Source of the DNA: Cyanodermella asteris
Lineage: Eukaryota; Ascomycota; Lecanoromycetes; Ostropales; Stictidaceae
DNA length: 64,000 nucleotides
Reading direction: 5' to 3'
Assembly: GCA_900618795.1 (NCBI GenBank)
Contig: UYJD01000004.1
Span: forward strand, 748,560 to 812,559
This document shows, in pieces, positions 2,133 to 30,225 of the stretch. The position numbers and the translations under genes were made by a program. Every line of letters begins with the position of its first letter. The first letter of the stretch is position 1. The notes below the pieces were generated by a model. It saw only the letters and a list, made by a program, of their open reading frames with translations, was not told where the DNA came from and made no database searches.

Positions 2133-3593
2133 ATGGCTCCGGCAGCAGATGACAACTCGGCAAAGGTCTTCGACCAAGTCATCACCGACATCGTCGACTA
2201 CGTCTACGACTTCAAGCCCACCAGCGAGAAAGCATGGACAAACGCCAAAGCTACCCTGCTCGACGCCCTGGGCTGCACCTTCGAGTGCCTCACCCTCAGC
2301 GAAGCATGCCGCAAACTAGTCGGGCCCGTCTTCCCCGGCAACACGACCGTCAAGAACGGCTTCAAGCTGCCCGGAACCCACTACGAGCTCGACATCCTCA
2401 AAGGTGCCTTCGACATGGGCGTGCTGGTTCGCTACCTCGACCACAACGACGCCTTCCTAGGGGCAGAATGGGGCCATCCATCGGATAACCTAGGCGCCAT
2501 CCTCGCGGTGTCCGACACGTTGAACCGCTCCGGGCACAAGAAGATCGATATCGATACCGTCTTGCAGGCGCTCATTAAAGCATATGAGATCCAAGGCGTC
2601 TTCCAGATTCGCAACTCGTACAACAAGGTCGGGCTCGATCACGTCATCAACGTCAAGGTCGCATCCACCGCCGTTGTCTCCTGGCTCATGGACCTCAGTA
2701 AGGAAGAGGCCAAAGCTGCCGTCTCGCACGCCTGGATCGACGGACACCCGCTGCGCACGTACCGACACGCTCCGAACGCGGGGCCCCGGAAAGGTTGGGC
2801 GGGCGGCGACGCGTGCATGCGCGCCGTGCACAATGTGCTGCAGGTCAAGAACGGGCAGCCGGGCCTCGCGACCGCGCTCAGCGCGCCGCGATGGGGGTTC
2901 TATGACGTGCTGTTCAAGGGCAAAGAGTTTGAGTTCCCCAAGAAGTTCGGCACCTGGTGTGTCGAGAATATCCTCTTCAAGGTCAATTGCGCCGAGGGAC
3001 ACGCGCTCACGGCGGTGGAGGCGGCGCTCAGCGTAGCGGAAGAACTCAAGAAGCGGGGCAAGACGGTGGACGATATCGCAAAGGTCTCGATCCGGACGCA
3101 AGAGGCGGCGATGGATATCATCAACAAGCAAGGTCCGCTGCATAACCCCGCTGACAGAGATCACTGCATGCAATACATGGTCGGCGTGGTGCTGTGCAAG
3201 GGCGCCATGGTCGACACGGCAGACTACCAGGACGACTCACCGTACGCGACATCGAAGCAGCTGGCTGACTTGCGGGCGAAGATGGAGTTGTGGGAGGACA
3301 AGCAGATCACAAAGGACTACCACGATTTGGACATTCGCAGTGCGACGAACGGTCTCACTGTCACGCTCAATGACGGCACGGTACTCGACGAGGTTGCGGT
3401 TGAGTTCCCGCTCGGAAGCCCGAAGAGGACTGAAACGCTGCCGCTGGTGGCTGAGAAGGCCAAAGCGAACCTGTCTTTGATGGTCGATGACGCTCGTGTG
3501 GAGGAGATTTTGGGTGCCTGGGAGTCCAAAGACTTTTTGCAGAGAGACGTCAGTTCGATACTCGATCTGTTCACTCCACGACTTCCGAATTAG
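2133..3593 (+). CDS. MmgE/PrpD family, 2-methylcitrate dehydratase-like
   Basis: This single-exon gene encodes 486 residues, close to the roughly 480-500 usual for PrpD. The ATG at 2133 has a good context (GCAAACATGG). Stretches typical of the PrpD branch are visible: HPSDNLGAILAVSD, KGWAGGDA near the middle, and NPADRDHCMQYMV. PrpD enzymes dehydrate 2-methylcitrate to 2-methyl-cis-aconitate in propionate breakdown. Alkylcitrate dehydratases of fungal maleidride pathways belong to the same family. I see no mitochondrial presequence, unlike what is expected for a housekeeping methylcitrate-cycle enzyme, so it could be a cytosolic paralogue with a specialised substrate. It is divergent from the metallo-beta-lactamase-fold gene and convergent with the SMP-30-like gene. 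A second, only distantly similar, family member sits at 17841. Family is certain; substrate is inferred. Confidence 0.9.
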   Translation: MAPAADDNSAKVFDQVITDIVDYVYDFKPTSEKAWTNAKATLLDALGCTFECLTLSEACRKLVGPVFPGNTTVKNGFKLPGTHYELDILKGAFDMGVLVRYLDHNDAFLGAEWGHPSDNLGAILAVSDTLNRSGHKKIDIDTVLQALIKAYEIQGVFQIRNSYNKVGLDHVINVKVASTAVVSWLMDLSKEEAKAAVSHAWIDGHPLRTYRHAPNAGPRKGWAGGDACMRAVHNVLQVKNGQPGLATALSAPRWGFYDVLFKGKEFEFPKKFGTWCVENILFKVNCAEGHALTAVEAALSVAEELKKRGKTVDDIAKVSIRTQEAAMDIINKQGPLHNPADRDHCMQYMVGVVLCKGAMVDTADYQDDSPYATSKQLADLRAKMELWEDKQITKDYHDLDIRSATNGLTVTLNDGTVLDEVAVEFPLGSPKRTETLPLVAEKAKANLSLMVDDARVEEILGAWESKDFLQRDVSSILDLFTPRLPN

Positions 3594-4126: not shown

Positions 4127-5285
4127 CTACTCGAAGCGATCGCTTTTCCTCGGCCGCGCACCACACTGGATATGCCACAGTTTGTCAAAGCCCAGTAACA
4201 GAAGCCCATCCGGCACTAACATGAAGTTATTAACACCCGTCGAAACCCTCACCTCTCCCAACATAGCCCCGCTGCTGTCCCAAGCCGTGACTCCATTCCC
4301 GCTCGACGATCAAATGTACCCCTTCTCATCCACATGCATGCCGTCCACAAACGGGTTGGCACCGTAAGCAAGCACACGACGATTCGCCAACCCGGACCCT
4401 GTCTTCGTGACATCGTACGCGTAGATCGTGTTGGGGCGCGACCCGTTGAAGTGGCCTCCCTCATGCACATATCCCGAGTCATTGATGTACAACGTGTCGT
4501 AATCAGGCGAGAACTCGAGGCCGTTTGGTTGGTCGAAGCCATCCGCTACGACGCGCACGACGCCCGTCTTCGGATCGAAGCGGTAGACTTGGCTGGGCAT
4601 GATGGGTTCTGGTTTGAAGCCCTCAAATAAGCCGTAGCTGTTGTCTGTGAACCAGATCGAGCCATCGCGGTTGATGCGTACGTCGTTGACGGCGGAGAAG
4701 TTGCGGCCGTAGAACGAGGTCAGGAGGGGCGTGGCGCGCTTGCTTTTCGGCTCGAAGAGCACGAGGGCGCTGGGCTGGTCGGCGCCAAAGGAGCAGAAGA
4801 GGAGATGGGTGGAGTTGTATTTCGTGGCACCGTTGGGAAAGGCCATGCCGGGCACGCGGTAGGAGGCGGTCATTTTGTAGGTGGAGGCATCGATGACGGT
4901 GACATTGATGGGATCAGAGAGACTGGATGACTGGGAGGCCGCATAGATTGAGTCCGTTGATGGTAGGTAGACTCCGGCTTCGTGGCTGCATGTTTAATAT
5001 AATATGTCAGTCAATGCTCATGTTTCTGCTTGCGGGCACATTCTGAATACATCATCTGCAGGCTGGCCATGGGGGATTCGAATAGGGAGCTGCATACACA
5101 AACTGCCATGCTTTTTGATCTGGAATCGATGCAGAAACATTGTTGCCCATCATCTTGAGGAAACGATCATCGTAAGACACGAGCTTTACGGAGGAGTTTG
5201 TGGCCTGGAAGGCGTCCACGTAGCCGCTGTAGCTGTAGTTGGCTGCCAGCTGCAGCAGGTCGACAACCAACGTCGTGACCTGCAT
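4127..5285 (-). pseudogene. SMP-30/gluconolactonase-like protein with in-frame stop
   Basis: Two exons can be placed: 5285-5098 and 4985-4127, with a 112-bp intron (donor GTATGC, acceptor ATGCAG) joining AWQFV to HEAGVYLP. The product has the SMP-30/gluconolactonase/LRE beta-propeller look: HEAGVYLPSTDSIYAAS, then NDVRINRDGSIWFTDNSYG, DQPNGLEFSPD and NTIYAYDV. Such enzymes hydrolyse sugar lactones and related lactones with a bound divalent metal. The frame is interrupted by TGA at 4312-4310, exactly where a tryptophan is expected (GYI-stop-SSSGNGV). It then stays open and family-like for about 60 more residues to a TAG at 4127. This could be a nonsense mutation, stop readthrough or a base error. 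The start is uncertain: 5285 gives no signal peptide, and an unseen first exon is possible. Divergent from the SDR gene at 6267. Confidence 0.7.
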
Positions 5286-9466: not shown

Positions 9467-10988
9467 ATGCGCCTTTCACAGCTATCCGCCCTCCAGAATG
9501 GCTTGGCTGCTATTGCTCTTCTCGGCCTTGGACCCGTTGCTCAAGCGAAGGGGACTCCCCCGGATCTGAGCCGATACCTCAGGTCCCTTCAGCTGGACAA
9601 TGCGAGCATCCAGTCTTTCGCAGACTCGGTCAGTACGATGCCTTTCGATCAAGACTTTCCAGACACGCCTCAGCCCTGGAACATCAGCATCGACCGCCAA
9701 TTCATCAACGTCACGAATCTGAAAGTCGCCCTGACACGCTACCACATCGACATCGACGAGCCCGTCTGGACTGAAGGGCCCCCACGCCAAAACATCTCCC
9801 AGCTACGTGACCACTGGTTGAACGAGTACAGCTGGGACGACGTCGAAGCCAAGCTGAACACGCAGTACAACCACTTCGTCACGACAGTCCGGCTGCCCGA
9901 GACGGATTACAACGACTCCAACTTCAGCGAGCCCGTGAAGCTGCATTTCGTGCACCACAAGTCGAAGCGCCGCGATGCGATACCGCTGCTGTTCATGCAC
10001 GGCACGCCAGGCAGTTTCATGGAAGTCGGCAATATTCTGGAAGCGTTGACGAACCCGCCGGACGATGAGCCCGCCTTCCACGTCGTAGCGCCCAGCATGC
10101 CTGGATACGCCTTTTCGCCGGCGCCTACGATGCCGGGCATGGATCCCACCGTCGTGGCGGGCGCGCTGAATGAGCTCATGAAACAGCTCGGCTATACCCG
10201 GTACGTCGTGCAAGCAGGCGACTACGGCGGCATAGTCCTCCGCTACATCGCGGGTCTGTACCCTCAGAATGTCGTCTCCGCGCTCGCAAACTTCTTCATC
10301 GTGCAGCCCAACGCCACGGACGAGGCGCGGTATGCCGCGAACCAAACCACGCCGGACGAGACCATGTACATTAAATCCGTGCAGTTTTACGGTGAGTGGG
10401 GCTCAGGATATCGTCTCCTCATGGCGAACACGCCTCTTCAGGCTGTCATTGCGTTGACAGACAGTCCATTGGGAAACCTAGCATGGGACTGGGATACCAT
10501 GCACTACTTAAGCGATCCGACGTACGAGTGGGGACTCGAAGAGATTATCACGTGGAGCATGATGTACTGGATCCCGGGGCCCTTTGCATCGCTACGGCAC
10601 TACAGGGAGATGAGCCTGCATGGGGTCTTTGCGGGGCCGGACTTGGGAAATGCGTACCCTTTCGTGCATCAGCCGATGGGTATTGCGGAGTTCCCAGGCG
10701 ACTTTTGGTATGGACTGGTGAGTTTTGTCTTTTCCATTGGATCGCTTGCTCGCCAATATACGAGGGATACTGACAAGGGCTTTTCATGTGTAGCCGATGG
10801 ACTGGGCACAACGATACTCGAACACCAACTGGCGCACCAAGCATACCACGGGCGCACACTTCCCCTCGACTCAAAATGCGGCCGCTCTCACCGAGGACAT
10901 TCGCTACTACTTCGGTAACGCAAGTCTGTCCGGCACCCACGAATGGCGGAACGCAAGCCAGGCGAAGGCATACACGTTCATTCCATAA
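9467..10988 (+). CDS. Secreted epoxide hydrolase, alpha/beta-hydrolase fold
   Basis: Exons 9467-10717 and 10794-10988 are joined over a 76-bp intron (donor GTGAGT, acceptor GTGTAG), giving 481 residues. The first 27 residues are a hydrophobic signal peptide ending in AQA. The epoxide-hydrolase N-terminal (EHN) region follows, with a WT-EGPPRQNISQLRDHWL type lead-in. The oxyanion motif HGTPGS is at 178-183, the nucleophile Asp is D252 in QAGDYGG, and the C-terminal His is H439 in TGAHFP. Such enzymes open epoxides to diols via an alkyl-enzyme ester on the Asp. A signal peptide suggests the substrate is met outside the cell or in the secretory route. It is convergent with the Zn2Cys6 regulator 387 bp downstream. 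Family is firm; the natural substrate is unknown. Confidence 0.9.
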
Positions 10989-11375: not shown

Positions 11376-14134
11376 TTAGCTGTTCGGTCTCGTCATGTTT
11401 CGATTATACGGCAGCATTCCAGGAACTTGCTCGCCCATAGTCTGCGGGAAGGTCCCATCGAAGTGGCCGCTGCCATCGACGCTCAAGATGTATTTCAGAG
11501 CTTCTTGGAACCGCGCCGAGTTCTCAATCGGCGTCGACAAACCACTGGGTTCAGGTGCAAACTGATTAGGCATCATGCCCCCACCAAGATCAAATTCGTC
11601 GGTCCCTCCGGCGAACATGTAGTCTTGCGGGTGAAGGGCACTTTCGAGGGTTGCAAAGTCAGCCGCTGTCAATGATGCGTCTCCCATATCCAGGGGAGAA
11701 GCTGTTGTAGTATTGGCGATGGCGGCGCCGGTCGTGTTGGTAATCATGCTGGTGGCACCATATAGGTCGTCTTGCATTACAATGTCGCCTCCTAGGTCCT
11801 GTGGGGGAGTAGCTCTGTTTGAAGAGAACTGCGACGACGGTTGACTGGGTCTTTGCTGCAGCGATGTGGAATAGCGATGCGAGATGGGATTTCGCCCATT
11901 GACTGATGAGGAGGTAGACTGCCGTCGATCCGGTGGTGATGCTGGAGATGATCGTCTCGACTCGTATACCAGTGTTGCAATTTCGGTGCACCAGACAAAG
12001 TTCTTGTGCAGCCTTGTGCAGTACGAGTAGGGTCGATCTGACTGAGCGATCATCTTGAGGGTGCGGGTAGTGCTTTTCATTAGCTCAAGATCGCCAGTAG
12101 TGTTGCTTGATGGTCCTTCTGTCATCAGGCTTTCGAAAATTTCATGAAATGCAATCACGGAATGGTCGCAGAAAATTCTATGAGCTGGTCAGTCCATCAA
12201 ATCCGCGCAGTGGTGCTGGGAGATTTCTTGACAAACCTCTCAAGGACGACCATACCGCCATCGAGCCCAAACCCGCCCTCGGACAGACCTTGAATGGTCT
12301 GCAGTGCCTTTCGAGCCGTGTTTCGCCTGGTCTGCTTACTCTTGCCGGCATCGCTATGGCTTAGGATGAGCAGGTGAGTGACGTGAAATGCATATCTGAG
12401 ATGTGAAATCATCAAGTTCTCGACGAACCCCTTGTCAGCAGAGCTCGCCAAGCTATCAACACGGCTGGACAGATCCTCCAGCCGCCCTTCGAGCCGGTCA
12501 ACGCGTCGCTGCCGGGCCGCAGCGCCAAGCTTTACCGCCTTTGGCGAGTACAAGTGTCTGTACGCTTCTTCGATCAAGCAGCTGAGCCGAAGGTTGGTCG
12601 ACACGAACTGTTGGCTAACAGTATTCTCCGATGGCAACTGCATATTACACTCGAACTCGTAGATACGACATGGAGGACCTCTGACAAAGATGCTTTGCTT
12701 GTCCACCAAGTACAGGATCCAGAGGACGTTTTGCGCTTCCTTCTCCTCCGGCGAAGTATCATCGCCGAGGCTCTGCCTCTCGTGCAAGCCCATCTGCTTT
12801 GCAAGCTGACACACCCGGTCGAAGATGCGTGCAAAGACGTTGTAGTGGATGAGGTCACGACCGACAAATGCCTGCAGTAGTTAGTAAAGATGCATTGGTA
12901 GGAAAATGACATGAGCAATCGGGCCGAGTAGGCAGGACTGACCAGAAGAAGCAAAGCTTGAATGCTGACGAGTCTTAATGTGCAGAATTTCTCCAGTTGT
13001 CTCAAAGCACGGTTGGCGTTAGCCAATAATAGGTGCAATACTTTCGTGTCGACACGATTTGGAGCGAAAGAATTGAAGCGAAAGGCGCGCGACTTCCATC
13101 CAGCAGATCTGAGTATGATATTGTTGAAGCAGAGCACCCAAGAATCATCCAGCTCGGAAGGGTCGGCTGAATATTGTTCGGCAACGGCCCTTGCCAGGGT
13201 CTGCTTGTCGAATAAAGGCGGCTCCAGGCTGTACTCGGACATGTAATCCTCGATGGACTCCTCGAGCACCTGCCGAGGCGGAAGCTCCAAAGGCTTCTCG
13301 TCACCAGTCTCGAAATTTTCCTGGAAACCCGCCGGACCTGAAAAAGACTCGTATCTGCGTCGGACTTCGCTAAAAGCGGTCGTGCCTTTGGCGACTCCAA
13401 CATCCGTCAGGCTCGAATGTTGAGACGTTGAAGCGGAGCTGGGGCGCTCTCCAGCATTGAGTAGCCTCTCGACAAGACCTTTCGAGTGGACCATATGGGC
13501 ATATGTCGAACAGGGGCCGTAGAATCGTTCTCCTGGACCGTCGGGAGCGATGACGCTGGAGGGTCTATTGCTAGCGCCAGAAGCCTGCGAGAAATGAGGG
13601 CTATCGAGCGCATCTGCGGGATCATCTTCTTCAGAGTCCGAATCATCCATCTTCGAAGTGGACTGTGGAGAGCATCCATTCAATGAGCCTCTTGCAGTCC
13701 TGTTGGAAGAGTCTTGCACGGACTGAGTGACGAGCTCTATCAATTCTTGCATGCGGCCCGCGAGGCTCATTTCTATCGTGCTCAGTCTGTCGTTGAATTG
13801 AGCGACGTCTTCGGTCCTGGCAGCATGTCAGCATGCGGTGGCCAGAAGATCAGCAGCGACTGGAACGAAACGCCGAAAGAAGACACAAGCAGTTGGATAT
13901 TGAGACGTACAGCTGCTTCATTTGACTCGCCTTCTTCTCTGGATTCGGAAAGCGGCACGGTACACCAGATCTTTTGCAATTGGAGCATTCAGGGAGCTGC
14001 CTGTTACATTTGACCTTGCGGCTCCGGCAATCGAGGCAAGCAGCAGGGCCATGAGTGGCCGACTCATCGTTGCTTGGTGGAGCAGCTCTCTTCTTTGGAA
14101 CAGTGCTACTCGTTGAGCTCGACGCTTTGCTCAT
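11376..14134 (-). CDS. Zn2Cys6 transcription factor with fungal-specific domain
   Basis: Four exons, 14134-13911, 13816-12943, 12871-12237 and 12177-11376, keep frame across introns of 94, 71 and 59 bp and give 844 residues. The zinc cluster is complete, with six cysteines at 33, 36, 43, 50, 53 and 60 (CLDC, VKC, PEC, NC, PC). It is followed by a coiled segment and a fungal-specific transcription factor domain in the middle ([17 protein letters not shown], then [17 protein letters not shown]). The C-terminal part is rich in Ser, Thr, Asn and Gln. The protein should bind paired CGG triplets as a dimer in the nucleus. It lies between the epoxide hydrolase and the decarboxylase-like gene, divergent from the latter, so a role as pathway regulator is plausible but inferred. 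Confidence 0.92.
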
Positions 14135-17100
14135 CTTCGCGCCACAGCAGGTTTCGAAGACGCGTTAGGGGAGGCTCGTTTACGTTGTCCGACTTGTCGC
14201 AGCAGAGACGGGAAACAGAGTTCTGCTCATTAGGCGGAGGAGCAGCACGACGGGTAGACAGGGGCATTGAGTGGCAAGCGGTCATGCCTCCCGCGCTGAC
14301 TTTGAAGGTCATGAATGGCATATATCGAGAGGGCGAAGGTTTGCACGGAAGCGAGACGTCGGCGGCGTTGCCGTGTTCGATAAGATCCTGATAACGTATG
14401 TTGCAGAAAGTCTGCCTAGACGCGTCGAGCGGACGTAGAACGCAAATCATGGTCTAATTCTCCAACCTGGGTTAGGCAGGCAGGGCATGGATGGGAGGGA
14501 AAAGGTGCCATGGCTGATGGTGTGAGCAGGGTTCTTCAGGCGAAGAGCGGGATGGCTCTGCTCTGCAGTTCTGATCAGCAGACTGGCGGGGCATCGCAGG
14601 GCATCGCAGGGCAACTGAGCGGGATGGCAGGACTCAGGCCCATACTCCAGGGCTGCAGGTTGATGGACGTAAAGGGCGTAGATGGGCAGAGGGTGTGGGA
14701 GAAAGTTAGAAGCCTGCACACGGCAACGAGCGTCGTGCGGAAACTCTGCGAGCTCGGGCCAGCAAGACGTCGGTGGGCGACCGGTGGCGCATCATCTCCA
14801 ACTACCTTACTGTGCAGCCACCGCGGGGCGAAGCACCATCCGTGGTTGACGCTCCCTTGGCCTTCATCCTTATATCTCTGCTTATCATGTCCAGACGATC
14901 GTGGATGTGCACAATGCTGGCTCCGCCCATTTTCTCAGCGTCTCAGCCGGTCTCACACCGAGAACGCAACCTTCCAGCATTCTGGAAACTCGACAGGCGG
15001 CGTGAGATGCAATCAGCGCAGCTGACTGCTATATTTGATTGGCTCAAAACAGGTCTGTCGAGAAGACCATGATCCGGCATTGCTCATGAACATGTCTGGG
15101 GCGTGCATGCGCGGCCCGTCTGTGGCTCCATGCAGATGGGTGTGGATCCTGCACGACAATCGCCATTCAACAAGGCTGATTACCGTGCCAGCCATCGCTG
15201 TTTCGTGCGATGCGTTGAAATCGAGCGGCATGTGCCAGACTACCTTGAGCTTTTCCTCCTCCACCATGCAAGGCAACCAAAGGATTCGCCCATTCCGCCA
15301 GCTACAGGCGGGCCGTAGCCACTCGGCCGTCACCGCGCACGCTCCTGCCGTATCGGAGTGGTGTGGTCGTCTGACAAAGTATCCTTCTGCCGCTTCGAAG
15401 CGTATCGACATGGCCACGAGCAATATTCATCGAGGCAAAGTGCAACCTTGTGCTATGATAAGGCATCGCAGGAAAGATAGGGCGCCACGGATGTCAGCCT
15501 ATAAGTTACCAACCTCGGTAACGGTTGAGCTACACTGAAGCTTTCGCCATTGCAGGCCAATAGGAAGGTAGCAATAACGAGAAAGACACGAAACGCGCCC
15601 ATGCTGCCGATCCGAAATACTTCTCAACCGACGCTAATGACAGTAGCACCAACGATCATAGCGTGGCGTGAGTTCTGATCACGCAACAAGGACGATCAGA
15701 AATCACTGGCGCCGAATCTGGGCATAACATCCACCTTTAGTCCATAGTATGCTAGCATTCAGGCCCCTGCTCTGTGGTTGCGGGGCCCTTGTATCTTCGT
15801 ACGTTAGTTGCGAACGCCGTCGCAGAAAGGCTTCCACTTTCACAAAAACAAGAGCTCGACCACCAGCGACGCTTTTCACCGAGCGCGAACTTGTCCCACG
15901 TGGCACTGACGAACGCCCAGAACACATCCAATCTTCTGGGATCGCTCAGTCCATGCAACTTGACAGTTCCAGGGGCACTGTCAACACCTCCACGGGAGGC
16001 AGAAATGGAGGTCGACGCTTTGAGCACCCCAAATTGGCATTCATAGCTCGCTTTCGTCTCGTCATGAGTCCTACCGCCGTTGGGACCATGAGATATCAAG
16101 GTCACTCCCTTCTTCCATGGCCATGTCGTAAGTTGGAAACAATAGAGTTGTCAGGTAGATGTTATGGCTCATCGAGCGTTCGTGAGGTTCTTGCGGACTG
16201 TAATGTGGAACCCGCTCGCTTCTCACGCCAAACTCTCCACAGCTGCTCCCTCGTGGTCCTAGCTCTTGCATGACAAGCGGCCATTCATCCGCGACTCCTT
16301 TGACACTCAGCCTCCTTCGCCGCCATGATGCGTGGTCCCCACCATATCACCAGAGAACACGCAACCTGGCCGCAGTGCCCTTCCTGACACCACGGCAGTC
16401 ATTGCTGCAGTTTAGCTTTAGTGTTCGGGTCGGAACTTTGCGCCAGCTGTCAGCACGGTTCGAGCCGGTAACTAATGGTCAGGTAGCCCCGTGAACAAGC
16501 CTTTGGTCGATCAGCAGGCTTCCGAATGCTGCGTCAGCAGTCATCGATGACGTCCGGCAAGCATGTACGCAAAGGGCAATGAGGCTGAACGCGCATGTGC
16601 AGAGGCTGAAGATGAGATGCTGGCATTGCTCGAGACGGACCTACACAGGTAGTTGACGAGATATAGAGTCACGAACGGCAGTTCGAGATTTGACTGTAAA
16701 GCTCCGGGTCAGTTAAGTTGGTCGCGACTGCCTCAACATCTAAGATCCCTCGCGCCTGCTTTCCATCGCCCACAACACCTCATGATGACGTGATTTGTGC
16801 TCCGGAACTTACCTACTAGGTAGTACTCATCCATGAGAGTCGTGAAATGCATTTCCAGCATCTCACAGCTGCGTAGCCTCCCAATTGCCGACTCAGGCGT
16901 ATGTGCCGGAATTCACACCTGGTGCTGCAGAGCAACCACGTTGAACCAACGCCGTCGGAGCGGTCGCATCGACCTGCCAGACATTTGCAAGCGGCCCGCA
17001 CGCGCTTGTCCTACAAACAACAGCTGTCAGCACGCTAGATGTCTCCCGATGGCGAGAAGGAGTCCAACAGGCAGGCTAAGATCAAATGGACAGAGGAATG

Positions 17101-17840
17101 ATGAGCCGTTACTCCGGATCAAGAGAAGGCGGAACACACGTTAACTCTCTGGAGACCAAGTCAAGTCGCAACGTAGACGCGTCCGGCTCTTGCGTCCCGC
17201 TGCCGTCCCGTCCATCGGTCTCGAATTCCCGAGCACCTGCCAGACTCTCACTCGCTGCACCGATCACACCTTCTATTCTGTCTGGCTGCCAGGCTTGCTG
17301 GACGTTCCAAAGCACGTGGGACAACGTTGTTCCATTCTCCGAGTCCACAGCTGCGTGTCAAGAGACAAGTCCACAGAACCGGTCGAATGAGAGGGTCTTG
17401 ATTCCTTGATGTGCCCTGCCCGACTGATCTGTGAACCGAACGACCTCGGAGTGCCGTCGCTGCGGTCACGTATCCCAGCTCTGCTTTAGCTGATCTATGC
17501 CATCGGACACGGTGGGCGAGGATGGGTCTCTTCCTACCTCATGCCTCACCGAGACAGGGAACCAGCGGCCATATGCCTCCGTTAAAGCTGCGTGATGAGC
17601 AACACAGCTTTGTACAGCCGTGGAAGGTTCTGCTACTCACTTTCTAACCAGCACTTGCCGTCAAGGGTCTACATTCTTCGTCTTTCACCGTGCAATACCT
17701 CATGTCTCTTTCTTCCTGGGTCTCTGAAGCGCCTTTCTTCTTCTCCTCGCGCTACTACCACCACTGGCAGCATCGCCGCCAGCAAGACTCCTGCTCTCGC
17801 TCCCCTTCCAGCGTCGGCTCAGCCGCATCTTCCTCTGACG
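14135..17840. other. Long divergent intergenic region (3.7 kb)
   Basis: This lies between the regulator and the decarboxylase-like gene and must hold both promoters. Many short frames occur on both strands but none has family similarity or a sensible exon structure. It contains an in-frame extension of the downstream gene from 17595, a CGG-N10-CCG element at 17184, and a short tandem GGGCATCGCA near 14589. Confidence 0.5.
17184..17199. promoter_or_regulatory. CGG-N10-CCG candidate Zn2Cys6 binding site
   Basis: CGG and CCG triplets 10 bp apart lie about 650 bp before the decarboxylase-like gene. With 3.7 kb of sequence, about one such hit is expected by chance, so this one alone is weak. Confidence 0.2.
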
Positions 17841-19428
17841 ATGGGTGTAACAAAGATGACGAATGGAGAGACGGAGGTCAGACCAGTGACCGCAGAGTTG
17901 AGCAAATGGCTAGCGAACTTGAGTCTCGCAGACATTCCCCCGGAGGTCGTTGAAAGGGCAAAGTATCAGCTTCTCGACGGCATTGCTTGCGCATTGGTAG
18001 GGGCTCATGTACCGTGGAGCGAGCGATATGTCGAAGCAACAGCAGAGTATGAGCCGGCAGGAGAGTACAGCGTGATCGGGTGGAACAAGGTGTGTGCAAC
18101 AAATTCGTGGCGCTTGTCGACTTGACTGCGAATCATTCCCACATCTGATGGCCGACATCAGGATTTACGGCCTTTGTTCTGACAACCATCTGCAGAAGTT
18201 CGGCCCCCTAGCGGCATCCATGATGAACGCGGCTTTCATCCAAGGCACCGAGCTCGATGACTACCACGCATCGGCACCGGTGCACAACTCAGCAATTATG
18301 TTGCCAACAGTCATGGCAGCCGTTGAGTCGCTGTCGCGGTGGAAAGGCCACGAGCACGAGAAGGTTTCTGGAAAGCACTTCTTGCTGTCTGTCATCGCGG
18401 GCTACGAGACAAGCATTCGGGCTGGCAATGGTCTGTACGGGAATGACATGCTGGCACGTGGCTGGCATTGTGGTGCCGTATACGGAGCTCCCGGTGCAGC
18501 TGCAGCAGCCTCGAAACTGTTCCGTTTGAACCCCGAGCAGGCTGAGGAGGCGATTGGCATAGCTTGTACGCAGGCCTGTGGTCTCATGGCAGCGCAATTT
18601 GGCGGCATGATCAAACGTGCCCAACACGGCTTCGCGGTACGCAATGGGCTGATGGGTGCATTCTTGACAAGAGGGCACTATCAAGGCATCACAAAAGTCT
18701 TCGAACAGCCCTTTGGCGGTTTCCTCGCCATGTTCAGCAGTGGCAACGGCCGCTCTCCCGCCTACAAGACCGACGCAGTCGTCGACCGACTAGGGGAGCA
18801 TTGGGAGACGATGCACATCCGCAATAAGCTCTACGCCGCCGTCGGTACCGCCCACGGCATGATCGAAATTATCGAAGACATGCAAGCAGCGCATCCAGAG
18901 CGGTTTGCCCGCGACCAACTTCACCGAATCACAAGCATCCATGCCGCTCAAAGTCCCGCCGGTTTCCACCACGATGGCTGGCAGCCAAAGGAGCGTCCCC
19001 TCGAGGTGACAGGCGCACAGATGTGTGCGGCCTACGTGATAGCGACACAGCTCGTCGACGGCCAAGTTCTGCTGGCCCAATTCGGTCGCGACAAGCTGGA
19101 CCGCGACGAGGTCTGGGATATCGTCCCCAGAGTCACCTGCTCGCACGACCCTTATTTTGATCCTGCTCCGAGGCTTGCTGGTGCTCGACTGACGGTCGTT
19201 TTTGATGATGGCTTCAAGCTGGAGCGGACTCTTGATGCTCCGCGAGGCTATGACCCGTGGGTTACCAATGAACAACTGGTAGAGAAGTATCGGAGACTTG
19301 TTTCGACTGTGCTTGAGCCGGAGCAGATGGCTGCTATCGAGACTGCGGTTCTGTCGCTTGATAGCATGGATGACTCAACGGAGCTGATCGCTTTGCTGGC
19401 GCAGCCTTGTGGCAAGGGCCTGGAGTGA
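17841..19428 (+). CDS. MmgE/PrpD family, cis-aconitate decarboxylase-like
   Basis: Exons 17841-18089 and 18196-19428, joined over a 106-bp intron, give 493 residues; A. terreus CadA has about 490. As I recall the CadA sequence, the match is close from the start (VERAKYQLLDGIACALVGAH, then VPWSERYV). It runs on through GTELDDYH, WHCGAVYGAP, GIACTQACGLM, GGMIKRAQHGFA, GNGR and LLAQF. Residues H107, H113, H174, K223 and H303 seem to correspond to the His/Lys active-site set described for IRG1/CAD enzymes. CAD converts cis-aconitate to itaconate and CO2. Many fungal paralogues of unknown substrate exist, so itaconate formation is inference. The frame also stays open upstream to an ATG at 17595, adding 82 residues with no Asp or Glu and many Arg, Ser and Leu, like a mitochondrial presequence; whether it is translated is unknown. 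The gene is divergent from the Zn2Cys6 regulator and convergent with the MFS gene. Confidence 0.88.
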
Positions 19429-20103
19429 AGATGGAGCGCATCAGGAAGTGAGAGAGCCCAGTGAAGTGCGGAGGCGCCGTGAAGCTTGCTGGATCCGTCA
19501 AGATCATGAAGCTGATCCATTCACTACCTGCACCTTCTGCCTTGCCGGAGCTCAAACCCAATTCGCAGCGATAGCAGCAACCACAAAGCAGCAAAAACAG
19601 CATGTCCTCGCTCCTTAGCCTGGAATTGAACCCCGTGCTGCTAAAGACTGGGTTTGAACAAATGGAAACCGTAGCTTGTTGGGTTATTGCTGCAATCGAC
19701 TTTTCGTCTGTCATCGTAACAGCTGAGCCATACTAGTTTTTTGCTTTCTTTAACACCTATCCTTCGCACATTCGCACATTCGGACATGTTTATGCTGCTG
19801 TGGTGATTTGGCTTGCTGATAACGCTCTCAAAAATAGTACTTATACTTACATTTGAGTGTTCAAGGTGGTGGGCGTCCTGACTCTGGATCGACGACAGCG
19901 TAGAAGAAGTCGAGAACAAGACAGCAAATAATTGGGCTTTCGGAAGATCCCAGATACCATTGAACGTGCAAGTGACAAAATTTCATCGATCTATACGCTT
20001 CGGGCTCTAGCTGGAAGAATTCCCCCTTCGAGCGCATTTTGCTAGATATAGTCACATGCGTAGATCTTTTTCAATCCATCATCGAAAAAGAGCCAGCACG
20101 TAC
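19429..20103. other. Convergent intergenic region
   Basis: Space between the decarboxylase-like gene and the MFS gene. I see no gene. Pol III A-box- and B-box-like words occur on the minus strand (19730 and 19632) but do not form a tRNA. Confidence 0.5.
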
Positions 20104-21934
20104 TCAAGCACGCTCCGAGACGACGGCGTTCTTCGACCAGCCCCTGATCCTCGCCCCAAAAACATAAAACAGCACCGGAATCGGCAGCATCGCCACCGCC
20201 ACGAACCCGAGCACGCTCGTCGCCCACCCGACCCCCAACCTCTGATACATGATCGGCGCGAAAAGCGGAAATCCCGCCCCGAACAAGCTCCTCACCAAGC
20301 CGTTACTCGCCATGGCGCTGTTCGCCACCGGCAGATAAACCTCGATCAGGTACGCAATGCACTGGATGAACACGCTGAACATGCCGCAGCCGATCACTAT
20401 CCCCGCGAGGACGGGGACGATCCAGTGGACGGAGTCGGAGGCGGCCGTCCACGCAAACCAGAAGAGTCCGAGGGGGAAGAGTACTGCGCCGAAGATCATG
20501 AGCGGGAGGCGGTCTTCGGGGGTTACGCGCCCGGAGGCGGCGGCGACGCGGCGTGCGAAGTAGTGTCGGACGAAGGTTACGGTGATCAGGACGGCGAGGA
20601 GGATCCCGAGGTGGAGGGAGAGAATGGGGAGGGAGGAGAGGCCGGGGGCCCAGTGGCGGGAGGAGGTGAAGGCGAACGGATACGCCGAGGTGAAGAGGTA
20701 GACTATGCCGTAGATGAAGGCTTGATAGATTGTGACGAGGACGAGTATGGGTTCGGTGGAGAAGAGACCTGTTCAAGAGACCTGTTAGTGAGGTGGAATT
20801 TTCGAATAGAGGCATTGAGGACGGGATGGAGGCGGGGAACGCTACGTACGCCATGGTCGGATTAGGTAGATGTTCTTGATGACGGATAGATCTGTTTTCT
20901 CTTCGTCCAGGGCTGACCTGATGCTTTGGTCGCCGGTGCTCTTTCTGAGACGTGCTGCTCGCTGCTGAAGGAGGGTTGCTGGGTATGTTTCTGGTAGAAG
21001 AAGGATGCTGAAGGCTGTGATTGTCCCACCGAGGATGACCATCACGTACATTGTCCAACGCCAGGAGGCGTGAGCAACAATAAAACCGCCGACAATCGGA
21101 GCGAGAAGTGGACCGGCGAAGATGGTGCCGACGGCGACTGTCAAGTTGATGCCACGGCCGACCGGCCCCCAGTTGTCCGTCGCCGCGCCAGAGACGATGG
21201 TAGCTGGTGATGCTCCAAAGCAGCCGGCAATGAAGCGTCCTATTAGTATGGTAGCTGTATTCTTGCCGAAGGCGGGCATCAATGTGAAGAGAGCAGCACC
21301 TCCGCTCCCGATCAGTAGAGGTCTCTTGCGGCCGAACTTTTCTGAAATCGGTCCCCAGAACGGTGGGCCAAAGCCGAACCCCTAATCAGATACCATAGTC
21401 AGAGAGGCATATAGGAGCACCATCTGTGGAAAGGAGACGAAGAAACGGGCTGCAGGCGTGGTCTAATAGAAGTTGACTTACCAGCAAGTACAGACTGGTT
21501 CCAAGGATAGCCACTTCGCTCGAAACGTTCAACTCCTCCGCAACATAAGGCACAGCCGGGGCGAACATGGCACTGTTGATGCTAATACTGAAGGTCACAA
21601 GCGCCAGCATGACAGTTGTACCTAGCTTCTGCCAGAGAGGCCAGTTCTTGGGATGCTCTGGATCATCTTCACCGTACCAGGTGTGAAGCTTGGCCTCCTT
21701 GCCCTCGCTCCCATCACGAACTCCACCCTTTTCGAGGGCGGCATTATCTGTGCCTGTCTGTTTGGTGGTCGACTGCTTGACCGGCTTGTGTGTATCTTCT
21801 TCTCGGTCGTTAGAAGCATGTTGCGGATCTGCAGACTGCCCAGATACTGTTGTGGCATTTGAGTGTCGTTTCTCGTCAGCAGCCACAGACCGGGTCGGAG
21901 ATGACCTGCGGTCTGTTCGTGATGTTGTCGACAT
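20104..21934 (-). CDS. MFS transporter, DHA1-type
   Basis: Exons 21934-21482, 21381-20850 and 20768-20104, with introns of 100 and 81 bp, give 549 residues. A hydrophilic N-terminus of about 90 residues precedes HPKNWPLWQK, the usual lead-in to the first membrane helix of fungal DHA1 transporters. Motif A is visible as GPISEKFGRKRPLL. Other family stretches are RFIAGCFGASPATIVSGAA, WGPVGRG, the LIRPWR joint after the central loop, and EPILVLVTIYQAF before helix 7. About 12 helices are expected. Such proton antiporters export drugs, polyamines or metabolites across the plasma membrane. The second intron ends in a duplicated acceptor, where only the downstream AG keeps frame. Its place next to the decarboxylase-like gene and regulator suggests export of the pathway product, by analogy with MfsA of A. 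terreus; this is inference. Confidence 0.92.
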
Positions 21935-23340: not shown

Positions 23341-24702
23341 ATGTACATCCCAAGTGAGGTTTGGGATCTGATTATTTCTTTTCTGCCTGATGACGACCTG
23401 CTACGGTGTGCCCGCGTGAACAGGGAGTTTTACACCACCGCCGTTGGGCTTCTGTATCGGGATGTGTGTCTGGATACGGCATGGCGCGTGGGACTGGGCA
23501 GACAAGCAGCATTGACTCCGATAATGAATCGGTCACCTACACGGGTACGATCAGTGGGGAACTTCTTGACAACGATCAAAGGCAATGAATTTCTTCGACG
23601 GCGGGTCAAGAGTGCTACCTTTCTCATGCTTGGAGAAGCTAGTCGCGCGGCGGTCATGGGACCTGTCAAAGAGATCTTCGAACAGTTCTCCAAATTGGAA
23701 AATCCGCCGTTCATCCATCTCAGCTGCCCACTGAGACAATACTGGTCGTTCCTGGCTCCATACGCTCAAATCAAGTCGCTACGACTCAAGGTGTCGGTGC
23801 ATTTCGAGTGCCCTCCCGTTCACTATCAGACGTTTCGGGAAGTGATGCAGTTGAAAGGGCTGCAGCATTTGACCATTGCCGATCTCAAGTGGTTGCGGCA
23901 GGGCATTGGTGAGCAGGAAGGCATGGCCCACATAGCACTGAACTGCAAAGCGCCGTTCTCAGACCTGGAGACGTTGGCGATATTGCAGTCTTCTTTCCCG
24001 AGCACCGACCTCGAGAAGATCATTGCGTGGCCGAAAGGGCTGAAGTCGTTCGCGTTTGAGGTCGATAATCGGCGCGAAGGCATTCATCCTCATCCGTATG
24101 ATGCGCAGCTGTTCGAGCGGGGTTTGGGGTTTCAAGCAGCCACGCTGGAACAAGTCCACATCGAAAAGGTGCAGTGGGACTTTGAAACCGAATCTGTATG
24201 CTCTCTAGCTCACTTGACCAACCTCAAACGGATCGGCCTCCCTCTCTCATTTTTGACAGAATTCAGGTGGCTTCCCGCCAATGACGAGACCTCTCCTCCC
24301 ACGGGCAGAATGGTCCCCGATTTGCATTTGACCTTGCCCCCGTCGATCGAGGCGTTGCAGATACAGACTCCTCCTCTTGTGGAAGGAGACGTGCATGTCT
24401 CGTACGGATTCTCACTCGAACACCGGACAATGTACAGCCAAGCTCTTTACCAGTATTTGCACAACTTCATATCAGAAAGACACCGGACTTGTCCTCGGCT
24501 GGAGCGAGCGGCGCTGTTCTGGCAACCAGAAGCTGATAACAAGAAGTCAATACACACCGAAGATGTCAGGATATTGGAGGAAGCGTTTCATCGAGCTGGA
24601 ATATCACTCACAGTTGGTCCTGCAAAGACCGGGCCGCTTTTCGGCTTTGGCAAGAATTTCACACCAGCGCCCGGTCCGGCTGCACGAGATTTGATGTTCT
24701 AG
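23341..24702 (+). CDS. F-box protein
   Basis: A single exon encodes 453 residues. Residues 1-45 form an F-box: IPSEVWDLIISFLPDDDLLR, then CARVNREFYTTAVGLLYRDV. This motif binds Skp1 in SCF ubiquitin ligases. The rest looks like a poorly conserved leucine-containing repeat region (phrases such as LRLKVSV, LQHLTIADLKWL, LETLAIL, LTNLKRIGLP), as is common in the expanded F-box families of filamentous fungi. Neither a target nor a pathway can be read from the sequence. Neighbours (MFS gene to the left, TAN1 to the right) give no functional hint. Confidence 0.85.
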   Translation: MYIPSEVWDLIISFLPDDDLLRCARVNREFYTTAVGLLYRDVCLDTAWRVGLGRQAALTPIMNRSPTRVRSVGNFLTTIKGNEFLRRRVKSATFLMLGEASRAAVMGPVKEIFEQFSKLENPPFIHLSCPLRQYWSFLAPYAQIKSLRLKVSVHFECPPVHYQTFREVMQLKGLQHLTIADLKWLRQGIGEQEGMAHIALNCKAPFSDLETLAILQSSFPSTDLEKIIAWPKGLKSFAFEVDNRREGIHPHPYDAQLFERGLGFQAATLEQVHIEKVQWDFETESVCSLAHLTNLKRIGLPLSFLTEFRWLPANDETSPPTGRMVPDLHLTLPPSIEALQIQTPPLVEGDVHVSYGFSLEHRTMYSQALYQYLHNFISERHRTCPRLERAALFWQPEADNKKSIHTEDVRILEEAFHRAGISLTVGPAKTGPLFGFGKNFTPAPGPAARDLMF

Positions 24703-25658
24703 GCGCCCATCGCATGTTGCGAATCGCTTGCGAGCTGGCAGACATCTTTTGGCGAAGGCCTAAGGCAGGATGGCCTGAATCTTCACGGGCTCTCAACGGT
24801 TTCGGGCTCCCTGGTCGTGCAAAGCCATTTTGACAGCAGTCCAATTGGCTGAAGTAGATGCATCCAAGAACCCCCAGAAGAACGGTAATTTTCCGAAAAC
24901 AACTCACAGATGGCAACTACCCAGACTGGCCAGTGCTCTGCAAGCGACTTCATCGCCAATGGTTTTGCGATCAGTGCGCAGAATTGCCAGCCTAAGACTT
25001 GTCATGATGCCCGGTAGACATCCGGAGACAAAATACAAGTTAGCATTCGTAATTGGCCGAATGGAAAGTTTTCTCCAGGGTAGAGCAGTGTCGTGTTGCA
25101 GTCTCGGCACACAACCGTAAACTGTAGCTGTGATCACAATTCACGAATCCGTAGCCTTCGTGGTAGCCGCGGAAATCATCATGCGACGGGCAAATTTCGA
25201 CTGAGATGATCGGTACACACGGTGGTAGTAAGTTGCTGCTGATTTCATCCTACCTTGAAGGCTGTCATATACCGGTGGCTGGATAACGTTGAGGTCGACT
25301 CGACCAGGCGGTGTATTTTGGCGCAGAAAAAAATGTTACATCATTTGCTCCGGACGGCGATCGCCGTCTTGGTTGTCTTCTACAAACTACAATGGCAGCA
25401 CCGCATTCGTGAATTTCCTGTAAATGACGGTGCTGCTTTACGTGCAGTTGTCCGATACATTCGAAAATACTCGGCACCGACCTTCAAGGGTAACCCCAAC
25501 GTCGACGCTACACCGAACCAGAGGTTGTTGTCACGCTCGCAACAGCCCCTACTCAGGCCCTTCAACACGCGCCCTGAGTCCTCCGACCCTAGATAGCTTT
25601 CTATTGCGAAATTCACCGAAGCCTAGCCTTTGGGTTGCAGTCATCCGAGGCCCACGCC
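24703..25658. other. Intergenic region
   Basis: Between the F-box gene and TAN1. No gene is supported; the right end should hold the TAN1 promoter. Confidence 0.45.
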
Positions 25659-27263
25659 ATGGCCGAGAACGGAAAGCGAAAAGCAGAGAGCAAGGAGGGG
25701 CAAGCGAAGAGAGTCAAGGTAACCTTCACTTCTTTGATCGCAATCTAATTCACCGGCTGATCATTGTTACGTCTCAGTACTCCAAATTCAAGGCTACGAA
25801 TCGTGGAAATGACAACACACTGGCAGCTCTGAAGGCAATCGAACCCGGTCACGCCGGTATATTTGCGACATGCGTCCGCGGGTTAGAAGGCAAGGCCACA
25901 GCACAGCTACGAGGACTCCTAGACGAGGTGAGCTACTCTGATGTGCACGTTAATGTGGCATTCCGAGATCCACTTTCGGGCAGCTCATGCCACCATCTTC
26001 ACTCCGAAACGTTGCTGATCACTTTTCGGACAGTATGCCTGCAAGTTGTATCCCGATCTTCACCCGGGAGGAGACGATGCAGGTGTCAACATCAAACTTG
26101 ATGATGACGATGATGGAGAAGACGAAGACGAAGAAGAGGGTGTCGACATCGAGGCTGCTATCAAATCAGAGCTCAAAGAGGCAAAGACGGCATCCCAGAA
26201 GCACATTTTCAAGACGGTTCGCATCGATATTGCGTGCGGTATGTACCGGCATCCTTACTCGTTTGAGACACCTCGATGGTAGATCCGATTGCCACTAATG
26301 CAGAACAGTTCTGTTCTTCAAAGTTGATGCTCCAATGGACCCCATTGCTCTCGTACAGCGGCTGTGCGAAGATGCGGCCGAGGGGCAAACGTCGACACGT
26401 ACCCGCCACGTTAATCGCCTCACTCCGGTGACACTCTTTGGTAAGGCTTCGCTGGAAGGTCTCAAGAAAGTTTGCGAGCAGGTGTTAACACCATATTTTC
26501 ATGGTGACGGGGTCCAAACCAGATCGGTGAGGCATTTGTTCGTCATTTGTTCGTCATGAGGTAATTCACACAAGGCTGACGTGTACAGTTTGCCATCCGT
26601 CCAACGATCCGCAATCATAGCGTTATGACAAGGAAAGAAGTGATTGATCAGGTGGCCGACTTTGTTGGAAAGAATCACACGGTCAATCTGTCGAACCCGG
26701 ATCTTGTTATTTTGGTCGACGTTTACACGGTACGTCGCCCCCCCTTCACGGTCTGCTCTTGCATGTGTGCCCGCCCGTGGAATAAATTTCGATATCGTTT
26801 CCTCCACCACACCTCCACTTGATTTGGCCGAAGGAGGTCGGACCCACTCTATCGATGCTTCACTGGTATGCAACACGCCTGCTACGCAGAGTCAAGTGAA
26901 GCATTTAGCAAGATGACGTGCGGTGTACAACGCCAAGACCACCATTGTGGCGCACAACAGCCAAATTGTGGCCACATCGTTCGAGTGTCAGACTGTCAGC
27001 TTGTGTCAGCATGGGCCACGACGCACTACTGGGCTCGAGCGGTGTCATTAAGCGAGCCAAGGGCTGACTTGACCGCCTTCTAGAACGTCTGTGGCATGAG
27101 CGTGGTTGACGGCAGCTACGAGAAGAACCTGAAGCGCTTCAATTTGAACGAAATCTTTGGTAGCCTAAAGGGCACGAAGGACGGGAAGGAAATCAGGAAT
27201 CCTGATTCGCAGGCCGAGACGGAACAGTCAGCCAAGGACGCGCCTCTTAAAGCAAAAGGCTAG
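25659..27263 (+). CDS. TAN1: THUMP-domain tRNA acetylation adaptor Tan1
   Basis: Six exons, 25659-25718, 25778-25927, 26034-26238, 26309-26526, 26589-26729 and 27084-27263, give 317 residues with frame kept throughout. The N-terminus is basic (NGKRKAESKEGQAKRVK). An acidic linker (about residues 85-105) and a THUMP domain with FFKVDAPMDPIALVQRLCED, FAIRPTIRNHS, VADFVGKNHTVNLSNPDLV and VCGMSVVDG match yeast Tan1 and human THUMPD1. Tan1 binds tRNA and is needed, together with the acetyltransferase Kre33/NAT10, for N4-acetylcytidine at position 12 of tRNA-Ser and tRNA-Leu. Intron 5 is 354 bp, several times longer than the other introns of the gene (about 59-106 bp). This is a housekeeping gene with no link to the metabolic genes on its left. 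Confidence 0.93.
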
Positions 27264-29046
27264 GTGAGATTATTGTACCGTATTATGTATATGATTGAGA
27301 CGGCGACGCCCACCGCGTTGGTCTTACAGTGGCAACGAGGCCGCTCGTCGATGATGTCCGCAACAATCGACTGCGTTTGATTGAATGACTTCGTATATGC
27401 TCGCAGACTCGGAGTCGGGCGTCCACCTTGCCAGCGCTCAACTATGTTGTCGAGCGGGCTCTGGAGCTGCCTTCGGACAATGTCCGATCGCACTGGTGGG
27501 TGTCTAGCTGGAGACGACATGTTTTCCCTGCATGGACTTGTACCGAGATACGCGTTCAAACGTGCTGCGACCATCCTCTTTTTTCACGTCTCGTTCGTGT
27601 TGTTCTCCGTATCGCAAGATTGACGAGGGGCACGATGACAGGGCCTCGGGAGAACTTGAACAGCCACGGTGGGACTCGCTAGATCGACCTCTCGGGTCGC
27701 CTGATAGACGAAAATCCAAGATTACCTATGCACGATTGCCGAATAATGGCTGGCGAGCAATGCTGGCTCCGGCAGCAAGCGACGGACCTTGTTTGCAAAG
27801 CTTCGGTGCTTGTCAGATCCTCTCGCTAGAATGTTGGCTGTCGACGGCGTACGGCGCAAACGCACCAATCGCACGGCCGTCTAAGCGAATCGCTGCCCCA
27901 GTTGGACCACTCTCGACCTGCGCTCCTGCTTGCGAACTTCATCACCCGCAGTACCCATTGTCCTCGAGTCAAGCAGAAATGCGGATCTTGTACCCACACA
28001 ACTCGGCCCAGCGCTCGATTAGGCGGTCCTCGCGACGCGAAATGTCCGCGTTCAAAACAGCCTTTGCTCAAACGAGAATGCTGGCGGTCTTGTCGAGGAC
28101 CACCAGGCAGGCGAGATATGGCATGTCAATCTTAGAAGATCACTGGTACCCATACACGAGACCTGTCATCGAACACAGACACCCTCAACTTGAGGCTCAC
28201 TGACTATGAGCGGCCACAATGATCAGTTCGGCCACCCCACCCGTCGGTGAGTTCCTTCGTCGTTCACAAATCCACAATCCGCAACTTGCGGAGAAATCAT
28301 GACAACAGGACCGGCCACAGGTCCGACGATACTGGGACTAGCGGTAAGATTTTACCATCCTACAATGATCGACGCAGCCCTAGCATAATCCTCGCTCCAT
28401 AGGCAGGTCAAAACCAACAACCAATGACCCTGCCGCTTGTGGCCAAGAGCCAACGACGCTGACGTTTCGTCTGCTGGACCTCGCTTCTTGGAACTGGAGT
28501 ATCTTAACACCTGAGAAGGCCCAACGGTAAGATGGCTCCTTACCCGGAGCTACCCTCATGATACGCTGTGAGTTCCAGTACATGATTACGAACAGAGCAG
28601 GGAGCCCCACCTTCTATGCCATCCATCGAGGTATATGCCCGACACCGAGTTTGCCATGCACATGGGGTACTGCCTTTCTTGGACAAGACCAACTAGCTGC
28701 GCCTTTCTCGCCAGTAAACTCGCTTGTCCTTGCTAGTGCCTCCGCTGTCCAGCTGTCAATCTAGAAAGTGGGTCTGGAGGCGTCAGAGTGCGTTCAGATG
28801 CCGTCCATGATTACGGCTGCAACCACTAGCGGATTCAGCAATGCTTCTCTTCATGCAAAATTCGGCACATCTTGTCTGTTAATCTCACAAATTCCAATGA
28901 TCGAAACTCCAGCACTTTGGTGGCCTCGCTGATATTGATCACGCGTGGCATTCGTATTGCCGCTCTCGCCGCCAGCTCACGTTGGTACTTTATTGTTCCA
29001 CATTCCTGCTCTCGGCGCCGAGCACTCTTCTCGAAAGCAACCAAAA
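27264..29046. other. Intergenic region (1.8 kb)
   Basis: No gene is supported. A 223-codon plus-strand frame (27532-28203) starts from a non-ATG-like context, has uneven composition and no recognisable family, and I do not call it. Confidence 0.45.
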
Positions 29047-30225
29047 ATGTCAGTCAGCTATATGCAGCCTGCTCGCTCGAGCAATCCCAGCAAGAGACAG
29101 AAAACGGACAACATGGCTACGCCTGTTTTCCTTAAACTCGATCCTCATCACTTCTCATACCCCATGGATGACCGACCACAGGCGAGCATTGAGCCCGAGA
29201 CGCTCTCATCACGTTTCCTGGAATCCCAGCGCCCCAAAAAGGACCGACGGAAAGCCATGCCCAAAGAGATAAACACATCCGGCATCACAATCAGTCCTTT
29301 CCTCTCACCTCAGCTTTCTCTTCCCGACGACGACCTCCACCACCGCTATACAAGACAACCCTCAGAAACACCCTCCATCGCTTCCATCACCTCATTCACG
29401 TCTACCTTCAGCACTAGCGTTCCATCTCTACCAACCCTGATCCGCCTCCGCCAGCCGACCACTCTCCTCCCACGCACCGAATCGCACGCAATAGAAAACG
29501 AAGTCCTCACAATCCGCCACCTAAACACGCACTCCATTCCCGTCCCCTCCACGGTTCGCCTACTACGAGATCGTCTCAGCCGCAAGCTGACCGCCGCCAT
29601 TCTGCAGAAACCCGAGGGCATTCCCTACCACACGGTCTCGTGGCCCCCAGACGACCCCCGCCACGCAAGAGCCCAAGCCCAAATCGCACAGTACTACGCA
29701 CGCGTCCAGAAATTACGCACTGCGGCCTTCGGCTCAGTCGCCGCCGTCTCCGCCGGCTTCGGCCGCACCTCCTGGCGCGAAGCCTTCCTCAACATGTTCG
29801 ACGCCCTCCTTCTCGACGCCGAAGACGCATGGGTCAACCTTCCCTTTGCACAGGTCCGCGTGGCGCTACGGAAACCCTGGATGGGACCCGAGCACACCAA
29901 GGACCCTGCGCTAGTCATACCTGGATTTGGCGACAGGAAGAGGGTCCTTGTCGATGAAGATACGGGCGATGTGGTGGCGTTCTGCGGGTTTCGAGATGCG
30001 TTTTGGGGAGATCCGGATGCGGTTTGTCCGGAGACGGAAAAACCGCTGTATGTCATGTTTCAAGCGCTAAAGGTGGTGGTGCTGGGGAGCGTGAGGCCGG
30101 AAAAGGGGCTGGCGGACGGGGGTGGGAGCGGGATTCTGGAAGCGAGGATACGGATCATGGACGCACTGGAGGAATTGGGAGTTGGTGGGGAGGCGAGTGG
30201 CGAGCCTGAGGCGAAACCAGCATGA
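29047..30225 (+). CDS. Conserved-looking hypothetical protein
   Basis: A single exon encodes 392 residues from the ATG at 29047, which has a good context (CCAAAAATGTC). I do not recognise a family. The first 150 residues are low in complexity and rich in Ser, Pro and Thr, with a basic PSKRQKTD stretch that could be a nuclear signal. The second half looks folded: SWREAFLNMFDALLLDAE, then DAWVNLPFAQVRVALRKPW, and a VVAFCGFRDAFWG segment. Codon use is orderly, with strong C preference at third positions in the middle, which supports a real gene. Neighbours (TAN1 to the left, a decayed oxidase to the right) give no hint of function. Confidence 0.75.
   Translation: MSVSYMQPARSSNPSKRQKTDNMATPVFLKLDPHHFSYPMDDRPQASIEPETLSSRFLESQRPKKDRRKAMPKEINTSGITISPFLSPQLSLPDDDLHHRYTRQPSETPSIASITSFTSTFSTSVPSLPTLIRLRQPTTLLPRTESHAIENEVLTIRHLNTHSIPVPSTVRLLRDRLSRKLTAAILQKPEGIPYHTVSWPPDDPRHARAQAQIAQYYARVQKLRTAAFGSVAAVSAGFGRTSWREAFLNMFDALLLDAEDAWVNLPFAQVRVALRKPWMGPEHTKDPALVIPGFGDRKRVLVDEDTGDVVAFCGFRDAFWGDPDAVCPETEKPLYVMFQALKVVVLGSVRPEKGLADGGGSGILEARIRIMDALEELGVGGEASGEPEAKPA

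Follow-up and report, generated by a model that had tools for sequence, protein, structure and literature searches.

Does a CadA-like gene in a short fungal locus encode an aconitate decarboxylase, and do its neighbours form an itaconate unit with it? The question is raised by a 64,000-nt stretch of Cyanodermella asteris DNA (hereafter the window). In this stretch a gene for a relative of the Aspergillus terreus cis-aconitate decarboxylase CadA (CAD1), the key enzyme for an industrial acid, lies beside genes for a Zn2Cys6 transcription factor and a major facilitator superfamily (MFS) transporter (the trio, positions 11376-21934). The A. terreus itaconate cluster consists of a regulator, mttA, cadA and mfsA, and a 2019 review reported the best CadA hits only in Aspergillus and Penicillium, the enzyme being seemingly absent from other fungi (PMC6447509). 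Judged from its sequence, the window gene is intact and a good candidate for a CadA-type decarboxylase gene beside a regulator and a transporter, which would make it a further member of a known enzyme type.

A full-length relative of CadA, set apart from PrpD

The enzyme gene (17841..19428, forward strand) has two exons, 17841-18089 and 18196-19428. They are separated by a 106-nt intron (18090..18195, GTGTGT..CTGCAG) that joins two frames across which the similarity to CadA continues. In-frame ATG codons are found at 17595, 17841 and 17856, and the protein has 493 residues from ATG 17841 or 488 residues from ATG 17856. With 204.3 bits for MmgE_PrpD_N and 101.5 bits for MmgE_PrpD_C, against a gathering cut-off of 32.1 for each, the protein falls in the MmgE/PrpD superfamily.

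The enzyme was compared with a sequence of 490 residues that was taken to be A. terreus CadA, and 234 of the 484 aligned positions (48.3%) were identical. The strong resemblance to the A. terreus enzyme claimed in the original prediction is thus borne out over the full length, although half of the residues differ. Residue 336 of that reference sequence is His, as stated for aCAD (PMC11814083); this speaks for its being CadA but is no proof.

A maximum-likelihood tree of 23 proteins, with the sequence taken as CadA as its one fungal CAD and with no HadA or other fungal paralogue, united the enzyme and CadA in one clade (support 100/99). This pair lay within a group of 15 (98/99) whose other 13 members are bacterial. 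Outside the group were the PrpD encoded in the window, Bacillus subtilis IRG1 and six other bacterial MmgE/PrpD proteins. For a second tree of 24 rows, six rows were added and five were removed (the window PrpD, B. subtilis IRG1, L018 and L019 for their long branches, and L010 for a frame break), and the enzyme-CadA pair was again recovered at 100/99. Alternative topologies on this second set, in which the 16 near bacterial rows took in one member of the pair but not its partner, were rejected (approximately unbiased test, p-AU 0.0004 and 0.0006); the groups had been named after the first tree had been seen. Placement inside or outside the CAD clade had been proposed as the check on the prediction, and in both trees the enzyme grouped with CadA, the one fungal CAD present. 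The pair could split once fungal CadA-like proteins are added, since HadA and the others lie outside these trees.

The window provides an internal comparison, a complete 2-methylcitrate dehydratase (PrpD) gene (2133..3593, forward strand) 14 kb from the CadA-like gene and not part of the trio. Its product scored 524.8 bits on TIGR02330 (prpD), above the cut-off of 458, and 566.5 bits on a second PrpD model, just below the cut-off of 575. The CadA-like enzyme had no match to TIGR02330 at E 0.001 and scored 23.3 bits on the second model, reaching neither curated PrpD cut-off. It shares family and fold with PrpD, but is only 19% identical to the window PrpD in an alignment. We show that the enzyme belongs to the MmgE/PrpD family and is a full-length relative of CadA set apart from PrpD. 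A role as the methylcitrate-cycle dehydratase of the fungus was considered and rejected; the PrpD gene proper is that at 2133-3593.

Active site, predicted fold and bacterial relatives

Residues H108, H169, K218, K289, D99 and H337 of the enzyme align with H111, H168, K217, K288, D102 and H336 of CadA, respectively. H108 and H169 are thereby the equivalents of His103 and His159, and H337 is that of His336 in aCAD, a residue placed in the aCAD active site by an AlphaFold model (PMC11814083).

A structure predicted by AlphaFold from 12 sequences (mean predicted local distance difference test, pLDDT, 85.1; predicted template-modelling score, pTM, 0.88) replaced a single-sequence model (pLDDT 35). 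When this model was compared with the PDB by Foldseek, the first eight matches by E-value were mouse and human ACOD1 and B. subtilis IRG1, followed by IDS epimerase and then by PrpD and MmgE. All 23 matches at E <= 0.001 were MmgE/PrpD enzymes, so that the predicted structure has the MmgE/PrpD fold. Separate look-ups of solved structures, which listed 10 and 11 sequences, gave none identified by name as a CAD from a fungus. The enzyme is like mammalian ACOD1/IRG1 in fold (template-modelling (TM) score 0.75-0.78 on query length) and in its His103 and His159 equivalents. It is unlike it in sequence (20-21% identity in the structural match) and in its third histidine, which comes from another position in the chain (PMC11814083).

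Twelve bacterial loci were listed by similarity to the enzyme, eleven with 40-44% identity and one with 28%. Matches were found in 481 plasmid records, and three among the best 30 of the 481 were at least 40% identical (two Caballeronia, one Paraburkholderia); one relative from each genus was used. Bacterial CadA-like genes are rare: a match at E <= 1e-60 was found in 4 of the 396 genomes from the phylum of the Streptomyces hit and in 3 of the 385 from the class of the Novosphingobium hit, the centre included in each count, and the two besides the centre in the latter class were only 34-35% identical. In viral contigs, 65 pattern matches yielded no confirmed relative. The genome of Streptomyces olivochromogenes (G004) carries two CadA-like genes, L029 and L030, on different contigs. 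The bacterial proteins (from Streptomyces, Kitasatospora, Novosphingobium, Caballeronia, Paraburkholderia and others) resemble the enzyme in their 40-44% identity and in having the same active-site residues, but they fall outside the fungal pair and differ in their neighbourhoods.

Among 16 near loci with unequal flanks, a gene of the isocitrate lyase (ICL)/phosphoenolpyruvate (PEP)-mutase family was present in 8, a LeuC-type gene in 7 (with 29-31% identity in three of the seven) and a LeuD-type gene in 4; L013, one of the 16, had supplied the queries, and L008 was left out. Two more distant loci had no ICL/PEP-mutase-family, LeuC-type or LeuD-type gene. A CadA-like gene and the lyase gene occur together in L001 (4-4395), L013 (4977-10881) and L014 (4047-10953), and also in L029, L032, L033, L038 and L039. 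The association spans Proteobacteria and Actinomycetota, and L013 and L014 also carry an MFS gene. In 13 whole genomes (G008 left out) the lyase was found at 29 places at E <= 1e-30, and in 6 of the 13 it lay within ~10 kb of the CadA-like gene. No citrate synthase was detected in the ten neighbouring open reading frames scanned. From gene content, the bacterial set could be a catabolic operon for (i) a methylcitrate-like pathway of dehydratase, hydratase and lyase; or (ii) a route from aconitate through itaconate and citramalate to pyruvate and acetate. The latter route is proposed here; among the 12 of 15 papers listed in a literature search, no title describes it.

Which reaction, and on which substrate?

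The relation to CadA and the intact active site suggest that the enzyme is probably an aconitate-type decarboxylase of the CadA kind, a reading that leaves its substrate unsettled. It would remove a carboxyl group from cis-aconitate or an alkyl derivative, yielding itaconate or an alkyl-itaconate. That the substrate is cis-aconitate itself, and the product itaconate, is a more tentative proposal, with the chances slightly against it. The expectation of "itaconate or a related decarboxylated acid" in the original prediction was fair as worded; itaconate as such is not established, because a CadA-like protein of A. niger acts on hexylaconitate (PMC7338620).

Several observations weigh against a CadA-type reaction. 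An identity of 48% leaves room for a different substrate, and the MmgE/PrpD family also includes dehydratases, epimerases and isomerases. The reference is a sequence taken to be CadA, and HadA and other fungal paralogues lay outside the comparison. Each of the 13 near bacterial relatives has the six active-site residues, and four of the six more distant rows of the second tree likewise carry His in the H337 column; the coordinating residues are conserved across the whole MmgE/PrpD family (PMC12290011). The H337 column is not His in the window PrpD or in B. subtilis IRG1, whose residues were matched to the published numbering by motif and which is probably no decarboxylase (PMC12290011). The His/Lys residues that had been predicted are therefore present, but they lack the diagnostic value attached to them: a set shared by near relatives and family-wide reveals an intact active site and does not fix the reaction. 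The set alone was thus rejected as proof of a decarboxylase. The fold does not fix the reaction either, because the TM-scores of IDS epimerase (0.77-0.78) and ACOD1 do not differ, and fold alone was likewise rejected as evidence. Finally, in half of the near bacterial loci the neighbourhood includes a lyase gene suited to a methylcitrate-like pathway, so that some proteins of the wider group may have an activity other than decarboxylation.

If the enzyme is not a CadA-type decarboxylase, it might carry out other MmgE/PrpD chemistry, acting as a dehydratase, an isomerase or a catalyst of some unknown reaction on a substituted succinate or a tricarboxylate. Such reactions are catalyzed by other MmgE/PrpD proteins that share its fold and its core residues (PMC12290011), and the recurrence of near bacterial relatives beside ICL-family lyase and LeuC-type genes gives a set that resembles the methylcitrate cycle. 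That set, however, also fits decarboxylation followed by hydration and cleavage, and the enzyme groups with CadA, away from PrpD. We regard this alternative as doubtful. A decarboxylase of the HadA type, acting on an alkyl-aconitate such as hexylaconitate in an alkylcitrate pathway mostly encoded elsewhere, appears slightly less likely again. A 2020 paper described a CadA-like A. niger enzyme that acts on alkyl-aconitate: hadA (NRRL3_00504), whose product is similar to cis-aconitate decarboxylase, is unlinked to the alkylcitrate cluster, and its overexpression shifted hexylaconitic to hexylitaconic acids (PMC7338620; compared here by description only). It would agree with this reading that the CadA-like gene of the window stands alone, and the 2-methylcitrate dehydratase 14 kb away is the kind of enzyme that acts one step earlier in the alkylcitrate pathway (akcC) and could in principle supply that step. 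The window dehydratase, however, passes the housekeeping prpD model TIGR02330, and neither a citrate synthase nor a fatty acid synthase domain was found in 20 Pfam-scanned window proteins or in six-frame scans of 14136-17842 and 24700-29502. Decarboxylation of an aconitate-type substrate thus stays the preferred reading of the enzyme.

The neighbouring genes and the question of an itaconate unit

The three genes lie side by side and are intact, with frames open once spliced and all six introns bounded by GT..AG. The Zn2Cys6 transcription factor gene (11376..14134, reverse strand) has four exons (14134-13911, 13816-12943, 12871-12237 and 12177-11376) and encodes 844 residues with Zn_clus (40.2 bits) and Fungal_trans (37.8 bits) domains. 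The DHA1-like MFS transporter gene (20104..21934, reverse strand) has three exons (21934-21482, 21381-20850 and 20768-20104) and encodes 549 residues with an MFS_1 domain (145 bits). Gene models and Pfam domains thereby confirm the adjacent regulator, CAD-like enzyme and MFS transporter of the original prediction. In the spacer between the regulator and enzyme starts (14135..17840, 3.7 kb), no Pfam domain was found in six frames of 14136-17842 at E 0.01. The original prediction mentions neither this spacer nor the PrpD gene of the window.

The trio might be one A. terreus-like unit of regulator, decarboxylase and exporter, a proposal that concerns the unit and does not compete with the readings of the enzyme. 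By inference, the neighbouring Zn2Cys6 protein would control the enzyme gene, the enzyme would decarboxylate an aconitate-like substrate, and the MFS protein would export the product. Adjacency and intactness of the three genes favour such a unit, and the trio resembles the A. terreus cluster in placing genes for a Zn2Cys6 regulator and an MFS transporter next to a CadA-like gene. Against it, the MFS protein is only 26% identical to a sequence taken as MfsA, the one reference for this comparison, no mitochondrial carrier gene was found near the trio, and the regulator start lies 3.7 kb from the enzyme start. Both the regulator and the MFS transporter of the A. terreus cluster are widely distributed among fungi (PMC6447509), so that such neighbours are common. 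The best NCBIfam match of the MFS protein was Bcr/CflA (99.6 bits, below the cut-off of 200.9) and its best solved match was Escherichia coli EmrD; by these comparisons it resembles general drug/H+ antiporters.

The absence of mttA from the window, noted in the original prediction, agrees with our scans. A six-frame regular-expression scan of the window, run without a positive control and blind to a signature interrupted by an intron, revealed no mitochondrial-carrier signature. Six-frame Pfam scans revealed no carrier in 14136-17842 and only a THUMP domain in 24700-29502. Elsewhere in the window, Pfam coverage consisted of 20 chosen proteins out of 170 stop-to-stop frames of at least 110 residues. 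An mttA gene may be present in another part of the genome.

The kilobases upstream of the regulator, enzyme and MFS genes had no 9-mer in common and shared three 8-mers. When six promoters were taken in all 20 triplets, the highest counts were 8 and 34; the overlap of the MFS and F-box upstream stretches inflates the highest control-triplet counts. CGG pairs were not above shuffles at 0.05, the fractions of 200 shuffles reaching the observed values being 0.86 for the regulator, 0.10 for the enzyme and 0.06 for the MFS gene. With no carrier gene found, an MFS protein 26% identical to the presumed MfsA and no common promoter motif, the claim of an A. terreus-type cluster is not supported, and we consider that the trio is rather unlikely to be one such unit.

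It is quite unlikely, in our estimate, that the locus is an itaconate unit put together independently of the A. terreus one, by which a filamentous fungus with no known itaconate production forms itaconate or an alkyl-itaconate with a CadA-like enzyme and a non-MfsA exporter but no mttA-type carrier. For want of an mttA-type carrier, the enzyme would have to enter the mitochondrion by an N-terminal extension, or cis-aconitate would have to arise in the cytosol. An open frame does extend the enzyme upstream by 82 codons from ATG 17595 (17595..17840, forward strand). It encodes eight K/R and no D/E; none of 1734 overlapping open non-coding windows of the same length lacked D/E, and 94 of 2261 open shuffles (from 20000 mononucleotide shuffles of the extension stretch) did. 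Import of an enzyme made with this extension, with no mttA carrier needed, would be consistent with its composition. However, it has the codon score expected of non-coding sequence, with 69% of the 1734 open non-coding windows scoring as high and 4.6% of 345 coding windows as low. Fungal 5′ leaders are often C+T-rich, and 17500-17841 is 61% C+T, with an out-of-frame ATG at 17702. Moreover, A. terreus CadA is cytosolic (PMC6447509). The extension is more likely a 5′ leader, or possibly a targeting peptide, and the import reading as a whole is very unlikely.

Other genes were also recognized in the window. An epoxide-hydrolase-like frame (9467-10918, forward strand) with EHN and alpha/beta hydrolase domains adjoins the regulator, and an F-box gene (23341-24702, forward strand) lies outside the trio. 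A metallo-beta-lactamase-fold protein (133-1368, reverse strand) scored 22.5 bits in Pfam, slightly short of the 22.7 required, and is weakly similar to N-acyl homoserine lactonases (42.7 bits against a cut-off of 390). An SMP-30/gluconolactonase-like frame (4313-4993, reverse strand; 82 bits) and, near the window end, a neutral trehalase gene (61688-63997, reverse strand) were also found.

The CadA-like enzyme partners CadA in both trees and has the same active-site set, His336 included, and its own activity is predicted. With another intact sister of CadA to compare, the residues that determine the substrate would be easier to locate. The bacterial relatives, scattered in occurrence and 40-44% identical, are relevant to the origin of the fungal gene.

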